A DNA stretch of 48,720 bases from a bacterium (GCA_020853235.1 JADYZG010000033.1:1-48720), one strand, 5' to 3'. Positions 37,879 through 47,816 are shown, counted from the first letter of the stretch. The notes: generated from the letters alone by a model not told the origin. A program made the numbers and translations.

Positions 37879-38724
37879 CTAATCAATAATATATATCGTC
37901 ACCAACCTTCTACTCCAATTCCCATAACGAATATCATCGAAGGCAAGATCGATACGATTCCCCTTAATCTTTCCTCCTGTATCTTCAGCTTTTCCAAAAC
38001 CATACCCAGGGATATACATATTTGTGTGCAGTGGAATTATGCGTGGATCAACTGCAACAATACCTTTAGTTAAGTAAGCACCGGTCGCAGTCGTTTTATT
38101 ACATCCAGAGCAAGTATGATCGTACGATGTAGCTAGTACAGTCAGTTTTCTCCAATAGTGAACTTTTTCTCCGTCAATCTCAATTGTTTTAAGATCATAT
38201 TTTGTCCCTATTCGCAAATACTCTGTCACAGGTTCTTTCTCAATCCATCGATCGATCGTATAAAAATTACTCTTTCCACTTGAGAATCTAATCTCTTCGA
38301 CGACCTTTCCTTGTAAACCATACCGTCCGCCTTTTTCATAAACTTTTTTTCTATGGGGGAGATCTTTAACATATGTTATTACTGAATCGTGATCAATTTT
38401 TTGCCAGGTTAGTCTTCTGGTTCTTTCAACTGGTACTGCTGTCAGTATTCTTGCTCCTTCAGAAGTTACATCTGTGAGTATTTCAAAATGTTCTCTACTA
38501 TAACCAAAATCTTCTAAAATGTCGTATTTATCGGTAAAGCAAGAGATACCGCTAACCTCATTATTCTCCGGTAATTTAATTTTGATTGGATTATAGAAGA
38601 TGCATATTGCTTGGTTTTCATCCGAGTTCGATAGAGAAATGCCCATAGTTATCGAATATGCTGATATTCTAGTTTGACAGAAAACAAAAATGAGCAGTAA
38701 CAGCATTACGAAAAGTGTACGCAT
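37879..38724 (-). CDS. secreted G5-3D domain protein
   Basis: Envelope protein of 281 aa. A signal peptide or anchor covers residues 1-22. A G5-like segment (about 130-180, with YGLQGKVVEEIRF and I-E-K-E-P-V-x-E-Y-L-R-I-G-T-K) is followed by a C-terminal 3D domain (about 195-280). The three conserved Asp appear in VAVDPRIIP, KAEDTGG and NRIDLAFDD. The 3D domain adopts the double-psi barrel fold of MltA-type lytic transglycosylases; G5-3D proteins such as YabE and Rpf-like proteins act on peptidoglycan. The ATG directly follows the stop of the helicase gene, so the two form an operon. Confidence 0.85.
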   Translation of the reverse strand: MRTLFVMLLLLIFVFCQTRISAYSITMGISLSNSDENQAICIFYNPIKIKLPENNEVSGISCFTDKYDILEDFGYSREHFEILTDVTSEGARILTAVPVERTRRLTWQKIDHDSVITYVKDLPHRKKVYEKGGRYGLQGKVVEEIRFSSGKSNFYTIDRWIEKEPVTEYLRIGTKYDLKTIEIDGEKVHYWRKLTVLATSYDHTCSGCNKTTATGAYLTKGIVAVDPRIIPLHTNMYIPGYGFGKAEDTGGKIKGNRIDLAFDDIRYGNWSRRLVTIYIID

Positions 38725-40766: not shown

Positions 40767-41903
40767 TTATAATCGTTCAGAAATAAATGGTTTGTAAATC
40801 CACCCCGTACGGCCTTCTTTCGTTTCAATCTTCACCCAAGCGTCTTGGTACCCGCGAATGATAACATAAATTCCAATATCAAGCCTATTTATAATTGACC
40901 CCGAAAGGCTAGGGGTCTGGCGAAGGTTTACGAAATCAGCACCATCTCGAGATATAATTCTCCCCAATTTATAGTGATCATTTTCAACGGTAAAAGTTAT
41001 GTCAATCGGCTTACCAATTTGAGTATTTCCTATTTTAAGCACCAGAGATTCACCATACTTACCTGGCAATAGTGGCGCACCGAGAGTTACTGCCAATGCA
41101 GTTTCTTCGCCAGGAAGGAGTAACCCAGGTGTTCTCACAATAACAGACGGCGCGAGCCAAGACGAATGATACAGCCTAGACAGTCCAGGCCCATGTGGTG
41201 CTAAGTAGAGTGAGTCCTTACCAGTTGAATAAATTGGAAACTCCCCGTCGTTTTTTACTTTCACGGAAAATGACACTAATTCTTTCTGTCTAACACTTTT
41301 CGAATAGGTTGGTTCCCCTACTGATACTTCATAAGCACGCTGAGAAATTGCTTCTTTACTTGCGCTCAATCCCATACAAAGTTGCGTGCAAGTTTTTACA
41401 TTGGCGAGTGCTATAGTTGTGTTTTTTTCATCAGAAACTGTAACGAGTTCAGCTTGTTGTAATTTAGAAAGTTTGAGTTTGTTGATAATTTCCTGCACTT
41501 CTTTTACAGGAACTGCACCAGAAATTGCCATAATGTAGTTACCTGTATCATCTGCAGAGACGACGTTAGTAAGATAATCAGGAAAATCACATGATAAATA
41601 GGCGATTTCGCCGTTATGCGAAATCGCATTAATCGGAGAAACATTATTTCCTCGAACATAAGCAAAATCAAAGAAAAGTGATTTTGCAATCTCCTCGGCA
41701 GTCGCTCCTGTCTTGATTGCCAAACGGTCGGTAACTTGTACCAACACAAGGGTCGTCATTGGACGATAGTTTCCTTTTGATCGTTCACACGCTATCGGCA
41801 AAAACGATTGAGGTTCTCTGGTTTCTGCAAAGACAGGATCCATCGTAACATTAGTGAAAAACACAAGAAGCACAAGAACCGAAATTTTTACCAACGATTT
41901 CAT
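40767..41903 (-). CDS. secreted protein with C-terminal bacterial SH3 domain
   Basis: A 378-aa exported protein. A signal peptide (MKSLVKISVLVLLVFFTNV to about residue 28) is followed by an unfamiliar domain (30-200), an Ig/NBR1-like beta sandwich (about 205-305, with LPGEETALAVTLGAPLLPGKY) and a bacterial SH3 domain (about 310-378, D-F-V-N-L-R-Q-T-P-S-L-S-G-S-I to G-W-I-Y-K-P-F). SH3 domains bind peptidoglycan peptides. The frame has an ATG at 41912 too, but that overlaps a TATAAT (41911-41916), so I prefer the second Met, 7 nt after it. It follows the GH25-M23 gene and probably shares its cell-wall role. Confidence 0.88.
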   Translation of the reverse strand: MKSLVKISVLVLLVFFTNVTMDPVFAETREPQSFLPIACERSKGNYRPMTTLVLVQVTDRLAIKTGATAEEIAKSLFFDFAYVRGNNVSPINAISHNGEIAYLSCDFPDYLTNVVSADDTGNYIMAISGAVPVKEVQEIINKLKLSKLQQAELVTVSDEKNTTIALANVKTCTQLCMGLSASKEAISQRAYEVSVGEPTYSKSVRQKELVSFSVKVKNDGEFPIYSTGKDSLYLAPHGPGLSRLYHSSWLAPSVIVRTPGLLLPGEETALAVTLGAPLLPGKYGESLVLKIGNTQIGKPIDITFTVENDHYKLGRIISRDGADFVNLRQTPSLSGSIINRLDIGIYVIIRGYQDAWVKIETKEGRTGWIYKPFISERL

Positions 41904-41949
41904 TACTTTCATTATACCTAGTAATAATGATTGGGCAAGGGCTATATCA

Positions 41950-44900
41950 TTATCGACACTTCAAACCATCTCCAGCAAGGCCACACATAGCAGCATATGC
42001 AGCATCTGGTCTACTATCCAAAACACCTTTAATCCAATATTCAAAATGAACGTGAGAACCGCTCGAACAAGGGCTTGGACCTTCTATCATGGCCGCAATG
42101 ACCCTCCCCTGCAGTACCGTAGTACCTAGAACACTTGGATTAGGGACAACATGTAAGAAGCGGTATTCACTACCATCTGACGAGGTAATTTTTACCCCCG
42201 AAACCGTACCGCCAGAGCTACATTTAATCGAAATACTCGAAACCCTCCCTGCCTTTGGGGCGACTACTTGAGCACTCCCCGGTCCAGGGCCAATGTCCAC
42301 AGCGTAATTACAGGGACCCGATTGGCATCTCGCCCCTCCATGTGATTCGGTACCATTTGGACCCTGTGTACATCTTGTAACACTCGTACCGCCCTGACGC
42401 TGTACAGGACAGGAGTTTGATGACAATGAATCATACTTACTCCAATCAATAGGTGGTAGTTCTCCTACACCACTACCAACTCCTGAAGCATATAATCCTG
42501 ACTCTCCTCCGTTACTACTCCATTTATCCATATCAACATTTCCAGAAATGCCATTGATCCTACCATTCGATGAATATTGCCAAACAACCCAGTCCGTCCA
42601 ACCTTTTGGCAAAGGTCCTGGTGCTGTGTCGTTCCAAGAGGCAACCCATAATGGATAGTCACCTGCCCAACTTGGCTGCGTCGTTACTGCACTCCACATC
42701 GCTGCACTCGTATAAATAATTGGTTTTGTACCAGTTTTTAATTCTAACCTATCTAACATTTTTTTAAGATTCGCCGTTCCCTTTTCCTTAGAGGCCCCAT
42801 TATAACAGACACTTTCAGCAGCTTTTTGAGATGTTGCCACCTCGACATCGACCGAAAGAAGGAAATCTGGTGTCCCACCAGCTTTACTTACTGTATTTAA
42901 AAAATTCTCAGCTTGAGCAGTACCGTCTATGTTTGGACAGAAGTAATGATACGCACTACGAACTATTCCATTTTTCTTGCTCTCTACCCAATTTTTCTTG
43001 AATTGAGGATCAACGTACGTAGAACCTTCTGTTGCTTTGATTATTGCAAATTCGATCTTACTTGTTTTAACTAAATCCCACTTAATATTACCTTGATGAT
43101 GGCTAACATCAATACCATCTGCACCGGCTAAATCTATTAATGGCGTTTGAACCCCAACTCCCTCCGGAGGTCCTTCTGCCGAGGCTAAAACGGGGGAATA
43201 CTCAGGGTCAGGCGGCCACAGAAAACCACCCTCAAAAACGCCCATCTTTGCATATTCTGCGAGATTCATCGCGGGTACTATCGTCACACTTCCAAGAAAA
43301 ATGATTCCAACGACAATTGCGACAAATATGGCAACGATAACTCGAAACGTCAGCTTGATCGTACCAAAAACAATCTTGTCCAGAGTACCAAAGCTAATCA
43401 AGTTTAAAAACTCATAGGTACCTGTGATAATGAGTGAAACACCACCAGAAAGAAAGGCTGCACCGCCTTCAATCGCGGCACGTATCCCGAGTTTCCCTGC
43501 TATTTTTAACGTCCATGTCCATAACTGTTTCTTGATCACGTTTACAGCTTTCTTTTTCAAAGCTGCGGGTAACCCAATTACTTTATGGACAGTTTCAAAA
43601 GCGTTAACAAGTTTTCTATACGCAGGATTCCTCAGTCTTTCTGTCCATTTAATGACATTTGCAGCACGCTGAAGGTTTTTTGCTTCTAATGAATTCTTGT
43701 TCGTTAACCTATTAAATCTTGTGTTAAGGTAAGCTCGTAGGTATTGAATACCCTGTTTTGAAGTCGGGTCATTAGGATTTTGCAAAAGTGATCCAAATGA
43801 TTTTCCACGAAGGAAGGTTTGTGCTGCACCGGGCAAAAAGAGTGAGCCTAAATCATCTGTTCTAAACAATTTCGCGATACTTTTATCTCGATACATTGCC
43901 CCATGTCCAGACGAAATATGAATCATGTTAGTAAACAGAGAACCATTCAAAAAACCTTTAACAATATTAACTGGGTGAAATACGTATCCATAGTATGACA
44001 TTCTTTGCGCGAGATTACCTTGATCAGAAATCAAAAACTGTGGGCCACCGTACTGGTTCCCAGCCTTACCATCATATGCCCAGTTTAAAAATTTTGATCT
44101 ATGTGAAGCACCGCCGTTCAACGAAAGTGTTTTTGCATTAACTCCTCCAAAAGCGCCCAAGACATTTATCCCCCTTCCCTGCAATGGGGCAACACCAGTT
44201 AACCCTCCAAACGCGTTCGCGAGATTCGCAAATCCTCCTGGATCTCCAAGTACGACCATAGGAATCGTAAGTAGTTGATTTGCCGATGGTAATGTTTGAA
44301 AGCGTTCGATTCCGTAAGTAACTTTATCAAAGAACCTTGGTTCACTAACACGAACTCCTGCACGAAATACGCCACCCTCAAGTGAGTTTGCATACCTAAC
44401 AAACCCCTTTGCTCTCAAATCATCAGAAAGCGTTTTAGTACCAACATTTACGACAGGAAGTAAATTACCAGGCAAAATAGTACCACTTTTCACCTTCGAA
44501 CCTTGAGTTACCATTGCTACGGGAGAGCTCATGGATTTTCCAAAAGCGCCAAGTAATCCCGCGAGTTTATTGTCCGAATAAATATTTTGTTCAAACTTAT
44601 CTAAATTACTTCGAAGATTAGCCGACAAAAGAGGATTACTTTTCGATCGTTGTACTACATCAAGCATTGCTCCTTGCAACATATTCCACTGGCCATCGGC
44701 ACCGAATAGTTCATTTTGTGTTAAGGAGGTACTATATTGTTTGCCGGTTCTTGGATCCTTTTGTGTAAAAATATCAAAAAAATTTGAGACTTCTCCATAT
44801 GCTCTGACATTTGCTCTCTGCACCGGATCAAAATACATTACTGTAGAAGCCCGAACCCTATTGTTATACTCTCTAGTTATCTCGGGCAATAGTCTTCTAT

Positions 44901-45705
44901 CTATAAGATTCGCAAACTCCTCTCGCTCGGCTTGGTTGCTAATTGTTGAAAACATACCTAACGACACGCCAGTCACTTGTCTCGCATTCGCCTCTGCACG
45001 GACGTAATTACTGTTCGGTGTCACTAAATCTTCTACTTTAAATACATCATTGGGATCTTGAGCATCTACTTTACGAGTAACAGCAAATGGCGTATTTACA
45101 ACAGAACTTTCGATTGTTGCAGCAATATCACTTGGAATATTGTCCTGCTTCATCATCCAGTAATTCGTTGCTTTTTTAAGCAACTCGTTGCCGTTCGAAA
45201 TAAGTGCTGCTCTTTTTATCTTTTTGATATTTTCCCAATATGCCTTAGCCGCAGCATCTGCAACACCGTTGGGGTTTTGAATAATATCGTTAGTATCGGC
45301 AAATTCTATTTTTGCTTCAGCTTTAACCGGACTCGAGCTACTCGCTTCAATTGAATTGTCATATTCCGAGTCAAAATTCATTGACCCTTGCCGCTGGTAT
45401 GTAGGAAACAGTGTTGATGGATCAAATGGAAGGAGTTGTGTTACATTAACTTTCCCTATAGTCGTCTTATCTCTAACATATTTATCAACTGAATCGAGAA
45501 CACTTTGAGCTGACTTTACGGCCGGGTTAACTGCTAGAACTCCACCAAGTTCAACCAATCCTTCTGCTAATGAATCAGAAAAATCACCAGAAGCAAAATC
45601 GGGAACTGCCTTCTGACCGTATTTTTTTGCCTGGCTTTCTGAAATTTCCAAGAGAGCATCATAAAACTGCCCTAATGCACTCATTGATTGGTTACTTGCA
45701 GCCAC
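41950..45705 (-). CDS. giant membrane-tethered GH25 lysozyme + M23 endopeptidase
   Basis: A 1251-aa protein with an architecture I have not seen named. Residues 1-740 are an unrecognised, mainly polar region without a signal peptide. Residues 743-773 and 789-812 are hydrophobic, the second a strong membrane helix. Residues 861-1063 are a complete GH25 muramidase (D866 in GIDVSHHQG; catalytic D953/E955 in SVDVE; WQYSS near the end). Residues 1110-1230 are an M23 LytM-type endopeptidase with candidate zinc ligands H1122, D1137 and H1218/H1220 (HVH). The two enzymes cut different bonds, glycan and peptide. The start is GTG with GAGGAG 6 nt upstream. It lies 12 nt after the VirB6-like gene, so the pair is an operon. 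Probably the N-part is inside the cell and the hydrolases outside. Confidence 0.93.
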   Translation of the reverse strand: MAASNQSMSALGQFYDALLEISESQAKKYGQKAVPDFASGDFSDSLAEGLVELGGVLAVNPAVKSAQSVLDSVDKYVRDKTTIGKVNVTQLLPFDPSTLFPTYQRQGSMNFDSEYDNSIEASSSSPVKAEAKIEFADTNDIIQNPNGVADAAAKAYWENIKKIKRAALISNGNELLKKATNYWMMKQDNIPSDIAATIESSVVNTPFAVTRKVDAQDPNDVFKVEDLVTPNSNYVRAEANARQVTGVSLGMFSTISNQAEREEFANLIDRRLLPEITREYNNRVRASTVMYFDPVQRANVRAYGEVSNFFDIFTQKDPRTGKQYSTSLTQNELFGADGQWNMLQGAMLDVVQRSKSNPLLSANLRSNLDKFEQNIYSDNKLAGLLGAFGKSMSSPVAMVTQGSKVKSGTILPGNLLPVVNVGTKTLSDDLRAKGFVRYANSLEGGVFRAGVRVSEPRFFDKVTYGIERFQTLPSANQLLTIPMVVLGDPGGFANLANAFGGLTGVAPLQGRGINVLGAFGGVNAKTLSLNGGASHRSKFLNWAYDGKAGNQYGGPQFLISDQGNLAQRMSYYGYVFHPVNIVKGFLNGSLFTNMIHISSGHGAMYRDKSIAKLFRTDDLGSLFLPGAAQTFLRGKSFGSLLQNPNDPTSKQGIQYLRAYLNTRFNRLTNKNSLEAKNLQRAANVIKWTERLRNPAYRKLVNAFETVHKVIGLPAALKKKAVNVIKKQLWTWTLKIAGKLGIRAAIEGGAAFLSGGVSLIITGTYEFLNLISFGTLDKIVFGTIKLTFRVIVAIFVAIVVGIIFLGSVTIVPAMNLAEYAKMGVFEGGFLWPPDPEYSPVLASAEGPPEGVGVQTPLIDLAGADGIDVSHHQGNIKWDLVKTSKIEFAIIKATEGSTYVDPQFKKNWVESKKNGIVRSAYHYFCPNIDGTAQAENFLNTVSKAGGTPDFLLSVDVEVATSQKAAESVCYNGASKEKGTANLKKMLDRLELKTGTKPIIYTSAAMWSAVTTQPSWAGDYPLWVASWNDTAPGPLPKGWTDWVVWQYSSNGRINGISGNVDMDKWSSNGGESGLYASGVGSGVGELPPIDWSKYDSLSSNSCPVQRQGGTSVTRCTQGPNGTESHGGARCQSGPCNYAVDIGPGPGSAQVVAPKAGRVSSISIKCSSGGTVSGVKITSSDGSEYRFLHVVPNPSVLGTTVLQGRVIAAMIEGPSPCSSGSHVHFEYWIKGVLDSRPDAAYAAMCGLAGDGLKCR

Positions 45706-45717
45706 AACGTCTCCTCG

Positions 45718-47295
45718 TTAACTGAACATCGAACCAACTAGAGGTATCTTCTGTAATTGTTTCATAGTTGCTTCGTTGACTTTATCGAGAGTCCCTGACC
45801 CTTTACCGGCGAATATATCAGCTATAACACCGGGAATTGAAGGCACCATGTTTAGAAGAACGATAAGAATAATCGCGTGGGGGGATATAAGAGCCATAAG
45901 AACATCTGCCGTACTTCTCGGCAATGCACCACCGGTTAGTCCTGCAAGTGGCGAAGAGAGTATCCCTCCTTCACCGGCGCCAGCAATCGCGGTCTTTAGC
46001 ACAATATATATGGTCGCATTAACCATTGCAAACATTATTGGCACTGTCAAAGAGTTCCTCAGCATTCTTGTTAACCAGTCCTTAACCACTGTCCCCTTGC
46101 TTGGGATTGCCGAGACAATAAACAGAATCGGTGCCACAACAACATCAATAGCCATATCAACATAAGTTTTAATTACAGCAAACCAAATTCTTAAACAGGC
46201 AACCAATATGACAGACGCAATCAATAATCTTACAGTTAAGGCAATGAGTCCAAAGATTCCATTCGTAACGATATTTGCTGCATCGAAAACTAGGCCAACG
46301 GCACCATTAAATAATGCCTCAACTCCAGATTTCAGAACACCATCACCAGAGGCCAATGATGTTCCAAAGATACTTATTGGTGAGTAATATGTTTTATCAC
46401 CCGCCATCAACAACAATATAATTTTTGCAAATAAACCAAATGGGTCGTTCAAATAGGTTATTCCGAAGTTTTCACCAGCTACCTTTCCAAACAGTCTCAT
46501 AATCCAGTTATCTCCCCCAGATAAATTTGGCCATAAGAACGTAGCGAACATTGTTGCGATTACAAACATCAGTGCTTTGGATAAATTCACAAAAAACACA
46601 CCAATTGCAAAACTTGCTAACGACATAACTGACGATAAAATCACGTTCTGCAATGCCATAGACACAGTAACTATTGTTTGTCCTCCAATTTTAGAGCGGA
46701 ACATAATCATAAAACCACTCACCAGTAGAACCAATACCACGAGCATCATTGAAATTGTGAAGGAAACTCCCCATAAATCTGCGATGCCGAACGCTTCCCA
46801 TGAATCCCCTGCTGAAGGACATTCTGGCCCCCGAGTGAGTAATCCAAAATCTTCACAACTTGCAGCATAAACTCCAGTGTTAGCAACTTCTTTTGGTAAC
46901 AACATATTTGCATAATATCCAGGAATATTTTCCGAGGGAGCGTTGTTAAAGGCAGAAGTCACACCACCGGTTGCAACGAAAAGCAACCCCGTGCTCGTTC
47001 TTGCGTCTTCCAGTGTCTCCGCTGTCGTACGATCTTCACAAGAACCAACAAATCCTAATATAGCCATGTAATTGTTAATAATCGAGGAATTTCGCACGTA
47101 GCTCGACGTTTTCACTATGTTCGATTGACCATCGGTCCCCAATCCTTCATCAATTTGTTCATCTCCATACTTAAACACATTAAGAAACGTATTCTTATCT
47201 GCATCACAGCTCCCTGCCGCACTAACCTGAGAAAAAGAGCCAGCGAAACTAATAACTAAAATTAATATAAAAAGGAATGGATAGAGTTTTTTCAT
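45718..47295 (-). CDS. VirB6/TrbL-like polytopic membrane protein
   Basis: A 525-aa protein with a signal peptide (residues 1-27, ending V-S-A-A), an extracytoplasmic Cys-containing domain (28-165) and then at least six hydrophobic helices. The segment SKIGGQTIVTVSMALQNVILSSVMS near the first helices resembles VirB6/TrbL proteins, the inner-membrane channel part of type IV secretion systems; the C-terminal segment with L-N-M-V-P-S-I-P-G is also usual in candidate-phyla versions. The assignment rests on pattern, not on a catalytic motif. A -10 box (TAGAAT) lies 5 nt before the ATG. Next to it are two small membrane proteins and the GH25-M23 gene. No VirB4 ATPase is in the window. Confidence 0.7.
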   Translation of the reverse strand: MKKLYPFLFILILVISFAGSFSQVSAAGSCDADKNTFLNVFKYGDEQIDEGLGTDGQSNIVKTSSYVRNSSIINNYMAILGFVGSCEDRTTAETLEDARTSTGLLFVATGGVTSAFNNAPSENIPGYYANMLLPKEVANTGVYAASCEDFGLLTRGPECPSAGDSWEAFGIADLWGVSFTISMMLVVLVLLVSGFMIMFRSKIGGQTIVTVSMALQNVILSSVMSLASFAIGVFFVNLSKALMFVIATMFATFLWPNLSGGDNWIMRLFGKVAGENFGITYLNDPFGLFAKIILLLMAGDKTYYSPISIFGTSLASGDGVLKSGVEALFNGAVGLVFDAANIVTNGIFGLIALTVRLLIASVILVACLRIWFAVIKTYVDMAIDVVVAPILFIVSAIPSKGTVVKDWLTRMLRNSLTVPIMFAMVNATIYIVLKTAIAGAGEGGILSSPLAGLTGGALPRSTADVLMALISPHAIILIVLLNMVPSIPGVIADIFAGKGSGTLDKVNEATMKQLQKIPLVGSMFS

Positions 47296-47300
47296 GCTCG

Positions 47301-47306
47301 ATTCTA
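47301..47306 (-). promoter_or_regulatory. -10 box before the VirB6-like gene
   Basis: Minus strand TAGAAT (5 of 6 consensus), 5 nt before ATG 47295. Fits the leaderless pattern, but the gene may also be read from the operon promoter at 47808. Confidence 0.4.
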
Positions 47307-47567
47307 TCTGGAATTTCCGCGCCTTGTCAACATAGGCGAAATTAATGAAAATATACTTTTTGCCGTCTTAATATAAGAAATTGCAGGACCATTAATAAAA
47401 TCTACAACGGATTCTTTTGCTTTTTCATAATACTCGATCATTTCGAGGAATGTATCGATCTTTTTCCCAATTTTCCCAAGTAAGAACAACACATATCCCA
47501 TTAGTCCAATAAAGACAAGAAGTGTAATAATTCCCAAGATTTGTAATGTAATAACAAGTTCAATCAT
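47304..47567 (-). CDS. small single-helix membrane protein
   Basis: An 87-aa protein with one long hydrophobic helix (about 3-31) and a mostly helical, charged C-terminal part (35-87). Organisation is like small bitopic subunits of membrane complexes. Unrecognised. It lies between the DUF5665 and VirB6-like genes on the same strand, and its stop is just 8 nt from the VirB6-like start, so a role in the same complex is likely but unproven. Confidence 0.65.
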   Translation of the reverse strand: MIELVITLQILGIITLLVFIGLMGYVLFLLGKIGKKIDTFLEMIEYYEKAKESVVDFINGPAISYIKTAKSIFSLISPMLTRRGNSR

Positions 47568-47585
47568 AATTTGGACAATACTAAT

Positions 47586-47801
47586 TTAGCTACCTTGCAG
47601 TCGTTGAACTTCTAGTATGATGTTATAAATGACTTCCCCAACAAGAGGAATCGTTTGGACACGCGAGACAATAAACCCTAGTACTCCAAATAACAGTGCT
47701 GCACCAATAATGGTGCCAATCCCCCAGCCAATGCCAGCAACAAGATTATCTGTAAACAACTGCGTCTTTGTTTTGTCGATATATACCTTTTGTGCTTTCA
47801 C
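47586..47801 (-). CDS. DUF5665-type small membrane protein
   Basis: A 71-aa protein. F-T-D-N-L-V-A-G-I-G-W-G-I-G-T-I-I-G and the following hydrophobic helix to V-P-L-V-G resemble DUF5665, a short family common in candidate-phyla and Gram-positive genomes, function unknown. The start codon is GTG. TGCTATACT (extended -10) ends 6 nt upstream, making it the likely first gene of the envelope operon and leaderless. Confidence 0.75.
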   Translation of the reverse strand: MKAQKVYIDKTKTQLFTDNLVAGIGWGIGTIIGAALLFGVLGFIVSRVQTIPLVGEVIYNIILEVQRLQGS

Positions 47802-47807
47802 AAAAAT

Positions 47808-47816
47808 AGTATAGCA
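47808..47816 (-). promoter_or_regulatory. extended -10 promoter of the VirB6/GH25-M23 operon
   Basis: Minus strand TGCTATACT, 6 nt before the GTG at 47801. Confidence 0.6.

Follow-up and report, generated by a model that had tools for sequence, protein, structure and literature searches.

A VirB6-like protein paired with a giant, putative membrane-tethered wall hydrolase with exchanged heads in a putative Patescibacteria T4SS

Genes and domains of the locus

The stretch of DNA analysed here, the window, comprises 48,720 nucleotides of a bacterial genome (GCA_020853235.1, JADYZG010000033.1:1-48720) which, judging from its size, gene content and type of T4SS, probably belongs to the Patescibacteria. 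A preliminary description, made from the sequence alone, had pointed to a cluster of genes on the minus strand, and every gene named in it is indeed an open frame. Transcription runs from a DUF5665 gene through those for an 87-aa bitopic, a 525-aa, a 1251-aa and an SH3-domain protein to a PcrA helicase and a 3D-domain protein. The main features are:

47586-47801, minus strand: DUF5665 protein, 71 aa (Pfam E 9e-12); its conservation extends to G001 and G003
47304-47567, minus strand: 87-aa bitopic protein, conserved in the genus and in G003
45718-47295, minus strand: 525-aa polytopic membrane protein, VirB6-like; its start resembles a signal peptide and it has 8-9 hydrophobic segments
41950-45705, minus strand: 1251-aa putative VirB1/PrgK-like tethered wall hydrolase, GTG start
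43366-45705, minus strand: its N-part (residues 1-780), a largely helical region predicted to lie in the cytoplasm and matching no known fold
43291-43350, minus strand: its membrane helix, about residues 785-805 (hydropathy centre 794, positive-inside flank)
42547-43113, minus strand: its GH25 muramidase domain, residues 865-1053 (Pfam E 3e-46), an insert private to this genome
42025-42306, minus strand: its M23-type metallopeptidase head, residues 1134-1227 (Pfam E 4e-7), with H1122 just upstream
40767-41912, minus strand: secreted SH3-domain protein, conserved across families shortly after the hydrolase

Conservation across the class rules out chance. The 1251-aa gene begins 13 bp past the gene of the 525-aa protein, and the SH3 protein lies downstream of it, as previously described. 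The 3D-domain protein encoded after PcrA (37879-38724) is a possible muralytic or wall-binding enzyme, and a gene of similar size occupies the same place in G001.

Pfam and hydropathy confirm the membrane helix, GH25 domain and M23 domain that had been recognized in the 1251-aa protein, while its N-terminal part, initially set at 740 residues, extends to approximately residue 780. The sole strong membrane helix is centred at residue 794, and the hydropathy and positive-inside patterns agree with a predicted topology of an N-part inside the cell, a single membrane passage and catalytic domains outside. In several relatives, however, hydropathy predicts two such segments ahead of the head.

Both enzymes were thought to retain their catalytic residues. 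This holds for the GH25 domain, which keeps D866 in its GIDVSH motif as well as D953 and E955, the two acids of a D-x-E motif, and whose closest solved relative is the Streptomyces enzyme Cellosyl (PDB 1jfx, E 4e-36); the catalytic acids are kept in both, although here the domain is embedded in a membrane-tethered fusion. For the M23 domain the statement needs qualification. D1137, H1185, H1218 and H1220 correspond to positions that are invariant in the family alignment (D48, H96, H129, H131), but the spacing of the first zinc ligand is stretched: the candidate, H1122 in a near-invariant "SH", lies 15 residues ahead of the Asp instead of 4. This long and variable distance, compared with the classical HxxxD, is a family-wide property of the M23 heads in the alignment, and a PDB search with the head profile recovers M23 structures (best 2.4e-9).

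The first ~780 residues yielded nothing convincing in Pfam. Structure prediction, which the preliminary description had proposed, gave for the family member L050 an almost entirely helical N-part (pLDDT 76) but no match to a solved or viral fold, and comparisons with PDB chains, with viral folds and with the large proteins that accompany VirB6 in other families revealed no homology. With the N-part profile the partner was found in 45 of the 86 genomes of the class, whereas across the phylum (287 genomes) it recovered 17 in-class genomes and one marginal match. The N-part thus appears, at the level of sequence comparison, essentially confined to this class and without detectable relative or fold match.

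These data bear on the idea that the locus is what remains of a phage tail or of an endolysin system, with a tape-measure-like helical protein carrying M23 and GH25. The GH25 domain is 37% identical to phage endolysins and M23 heads do occur in tail proteins; however, the N-part has no viral fold match, the gene is in conserved chromosomal synteny with PcrA, and its partner is VirB6-like. We consider a phage origin very improbable.

The VirB6-like partner and the remainder of the T4SS

The preliminary description labelled the 525-aa protein as VirB6/TrbL-like. In profile searches this fails for the window protein itself, which has no match to Pfam VirB6/TrbL (PF04610); only one of 33 homologues reaches TrbL (6e-5), seven weak PF04610 matches in the class fall on orthologues (G011, G002, G007, G078, G079, G064, G062), and a sequence-profile search of the family against the PDB returned nothing. 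Fold and synteny, however, uphold the label. The AlphaFold model (mean pLDDT 68) retrieves with Foldseek R388 TrwI/VirB6 chains at ranks 1-3, with probabilities of 1.00, 0.98 and 0.72 although with E-values of 0.1 or higher; the best are 8rtd_L (probability 1.00, TMt 0.51) and 7o3v_G (probability 0.98), with E-values of just 0.12-0.14. TrwI/VirB6 chains occur again further down (ranks 7 and 22), and rank 37 is DotA. The gene is present in 50 of 58 relatives, and when the phylum was searched with the family profile, 104 of its 287 genomes gave a match. Of 20 VirB6-like loci in other classes, 11 have PrgI, mostly together with VirB4, on the same strand and approximately 2-7 kb further downstream. 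With this support from two independent tests, the resemblance to R388 TrwI/VirB6 and the synteny with PrgI-VirB4, the 525-aa protein is probably the VirB6 inner-membrane channel subunit.

VirB4 and pilin genes, for which a search nearby in the full genome had been proposed, were indeed found elsewhere in the genome. The window genome (G000) encodes VirB4 on C29 (P-loop_TraG 1.4e-24, CagE_TrbE_VirB 6.6e-6), with PrgI (3.3e-12) two genes ahead of it, and has five matches to the VirB2-like pilin profile PF18895 (best 9.5e-13). Among the 58 relatives VirB4 occurs in 57, T4SS_pilin in 55 and PrgI in 54. The profile PF10412 for the coupling protein VirD4 gives a weak match in G000 (6.7e-4, under the cut-off) and exceeds the cut-off in 7 of 12 relatives, matches that may represent other HerA-like ATPases. 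In the class of the window genome the linkage of VirB6 to PrgI is loose: 22 genomes have both on one contig, at distances of 14-87 kb (median 40 kb). The VirB6-hydrolase pair is probably an outlying piece of the chromosomal T4SS of Patescibacteria, a system that has already been described across this group (PMC12102498, PMC10633639, PMC12857230), is essential in Southlakia epibionticum (PMC10633639) and is accompanied by relaxases in few Patescibacteria (PMC12102498).

Two further observations concern the VirB4 regions. Two genes past VirB4 on C29 lies a gene for a carnitine/choline acyltransferase-like protein (L076:4219-6048; PF00755, 1.7e-13), unexpected in a reduced genome. A second VirB4 adjoining a TrbL-like gene (G003:C1:90167-94054 and G020:C7:111401-115093) probably belongs to a separate T4SS or conjugative element.

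Conservation of the gene pair and exchange of the head

The pairing of the two genes is well conserved in relatives. The VirB6 gene lies directly upstream of the N-part gene in 39 of 41 loci, the remaining two being cut by a contig end, and the spacing is -22 to +43 bp, except for one frame-shifted gene. The pairing is not a selection artefact, because 20 of these loci were retrieved through the N-part alone. The hydrolase is not a universal part of the system, however, since the VirB6 genes of families f4, f9, f11 and f13 are paired with other, unrelated large proteins.

In f4 (L052, L057, L058, L059) and in f9, f11 and f13 (L060, L061, L064, L065, L067, L071), the gene downstream of VirB6 encodes a small soluble protein, and next comes a 900-1570-aa multi-helix protein of unknown family; these large partners showed no relation to the N-part. 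Some f5 genomes carry a second, diverged VirB6/N-part cluster in which the partner protein has no enzymatic head (L048:8346-15037, L053:8832-12444, G038:C18:51451-54866). VirB8 mostly goes undetected in Patescibacteria. In f3, f5 and parts of f1 the hydrolase is followed by a ~313-360-aa protein with an N-terminal helix, the size and topology of which recall VirB8 (L043:13964-15019, L050:13010-14014, and 13 orthologues in alignment A8), although for the ~335-aa bitopic gene of f5 no PDB profile match was obtained. Upstream of VirB6, f5 encodes large fibronectin-type-III/phosphatase-N-domain proteins with N-terminal helices, which are possible surface adhesins (L043:2312-5788, L043:6173-7837, and orthologues).

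GH25 has been inserted between the M23 head and the membrane helix in this genome only; the domain was found in 3 of 58 relatives, but the fusion occurs just here. The dual hydrolase named in the preliminary description is therefore private to this genome, and we reject GH25-M23 as a conserved unit. Its restriction to one genome suggests that the insert is most likely a recent elaboration; it is unlikely to stem from misassembly, as the sequence on either side of it aligns to relatives. The base composition of the insert (GC3 0.306 vs. a mean of 0.32) is uninformative on a recent foreign origin.

The head itself varies among the loci. It is M23 in 25, zincin-like with an HExxH motif in 8, a C39 peptidase in one and unassigned in one (L046), the rest being cut or short. 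The HExxH heads share a conserved HExxH...E and are zincin-like by motif alone; the three of the eight that were scanned with Pfam had no known domain. Neither the HExxH nor the C39 heads are known as peptidoglycan enzymes. On the VirB6 tree at least five switches between M23 and HExxH are required, and the scatter equals that of shuffled labels. Even the two sisters within the window genus differ, G001 carrying M23 and G002 HExxH. L054 and L089 are 42% identical over 688 aa up to the helix, while their heads are unrelated beyond ~22 aa, and L033 and L034 likewise combine similar N-parts with unrelated heads.

This turnover is relevant to whether the protein serves the cell's own wall, in growth or cell separation, and has no more than its operon in common with VirB6. 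Its neighbours do include the SH3 protein and the possibly muralytic 3D-domain protein, and the M23 head of the window is well conserved with that of its sister L033 (56% identity). However, VirB6 pairing is strict in all assessable loci of the class and found nowhere else, and sister species swap heads for non-M23 domains; such swaps would not easily be tolerated in an essential housekeeping wall enzyme, and we therefore regard this role as unlikely. Changing targets outside the cell seem to account better than housekeeping of its own wall for the head turnover between sister species, and exchange of the head with a constant anchor may reflect adaptation to a variety of target envelopes, most likely those of hosts.

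Polymorphic heads on a constant N-part, together with the lack of a signal peptide, also resemble polymorphic effectors, so that the protein could be an antibacterial effector delivered by the T4SS, with an exchangeable C-terminal toxin head and the N-part as translocation region. This seems equally unlikely, given the membrane helix ahead of the head and the invariant position directly after the channel subunit; nor was a conserved immunity-like gene seen beside the hydrolase.

Comparison with known systems and implications

The combination had been thought to be unlike any described system. This does not stand. In PrgH/PrgK and Orf15/Orf14 we take the gene order to be VirB6 followed by the tethered hydrolase. 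Gram-positive T4SSs are known to combine VirB6 with a tethered multi-domain wall hydrolase that has a cytoplasmic N-part (PMC12857230), and because the arrangement is the same we interpret these two genes as the VirB6-VirB1 module of the T4SS in Patescibacteria. PrgK of pCF10 consists of an intracellular domain, a helix (254-274), LytM, muramidase and CHAP (PMC11323569; PMC12857230), and its LytM domain lacks either zinc motif (PMC11323569). The 1251-aa protein resembles this Enterococcus T4SS (PrgK/PrgH; DELTA-class VirB1) in its predicted topology, with an N-domain inside, a single helix and LytM/M23-type and muramidase domains outside, and in its VirB6 partner. It differs in the length of its N-part (~780 vs. 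~253 residues), which is unrelated to any PDB chain, in its muramidase, which is GH25 (in this genome only) instead of SLT-type, and in its M23 domain, which keeps HxH and the Asp whereas both zinc motifs are absent from the PrgK LytM. CHAP, present in PrgK, was not found in the family here, one relative having C39 instead. Also unlike PrgK, the head is exchanged between relatives and the gene lies far from virB4.

With VirB4, PrgI, VirB2-like pilins and VirB6 in one genome, the system resembles the chromosomal MPF_FATA-like Patescibacteria T4SS (PMC12102498). A 2025 survey of 20 genes on each side of virB4 reported 480 VirB6 homologues in 3,035 genomes and found VirB1 to be seldom virB4-linked (PMC12102498), whereas here VirB6 and the VirB1-type enzyme form a locus of their own tens of kilobases away; at such distances a virB4-centred survey would tend to miss it. 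The T4SS locus of Southlakia epibionticum also has wall-cutting enzymes, but there a lysozyme and a peptidase are encoded by separate genes downstream of virB4 (PMC12102498), in contrast to one giant tethered protein with VirB6.

We consequently favour, with a probability of roughly 0.7, the interpretation of the 1251-aa protein as a VirB1-type, PrgK-like hydrolase anchored at the VirB6 channel of the Patescibacteria T4SS. Its helical N-part would dock it from the cytoplasm to the VirB6/VirB4 base, and the single predicted helix would cross the membrane beside VirB6. By local cutting of peptidoglycan, the outer head may then let the channel and VirB2-type pili through the wall at the contact site; in this genome, with GH25 inserted beside M23, the protein could cleave glycan strands and peptide cross-links at the same time. 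Swapping of the heads on a retained anchor would tune the protein to different target envelopes, most likely those of hosts. Penetration of the host wall is a plausible function, which the head exchange favours. More tentatively, and with the odds somewhat against it, the T4SS of this class may possess a dedicated membrane-anchored cutting arm, the recombination-swapped tip of which (M23, zincin, C39 or GH25+M23) matches the host envelope. Such a device would open walls upon contact, its heads being interchangeable and its cytoplasmic anchor having a new fold.

The VirB6 type and the Patescibacteria T4SS are known; the N-part without known fold, the exchanged outer head and the GH25 domain as a private insert are new, and a giant VirB6 partner with an exchanged cutting end appears to be undescribed. 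The means by which Patescibacteria gain access to the interior of their hosts are a central question in the field, and their T4SS is essential in the sole species tested. Here VirB6 and a VirB1-type enzyme would stand together at a second locus, away from virB4, and the exchangeable heads may offer a testable handle on host range, since the head should match the chemistry of the host wall.
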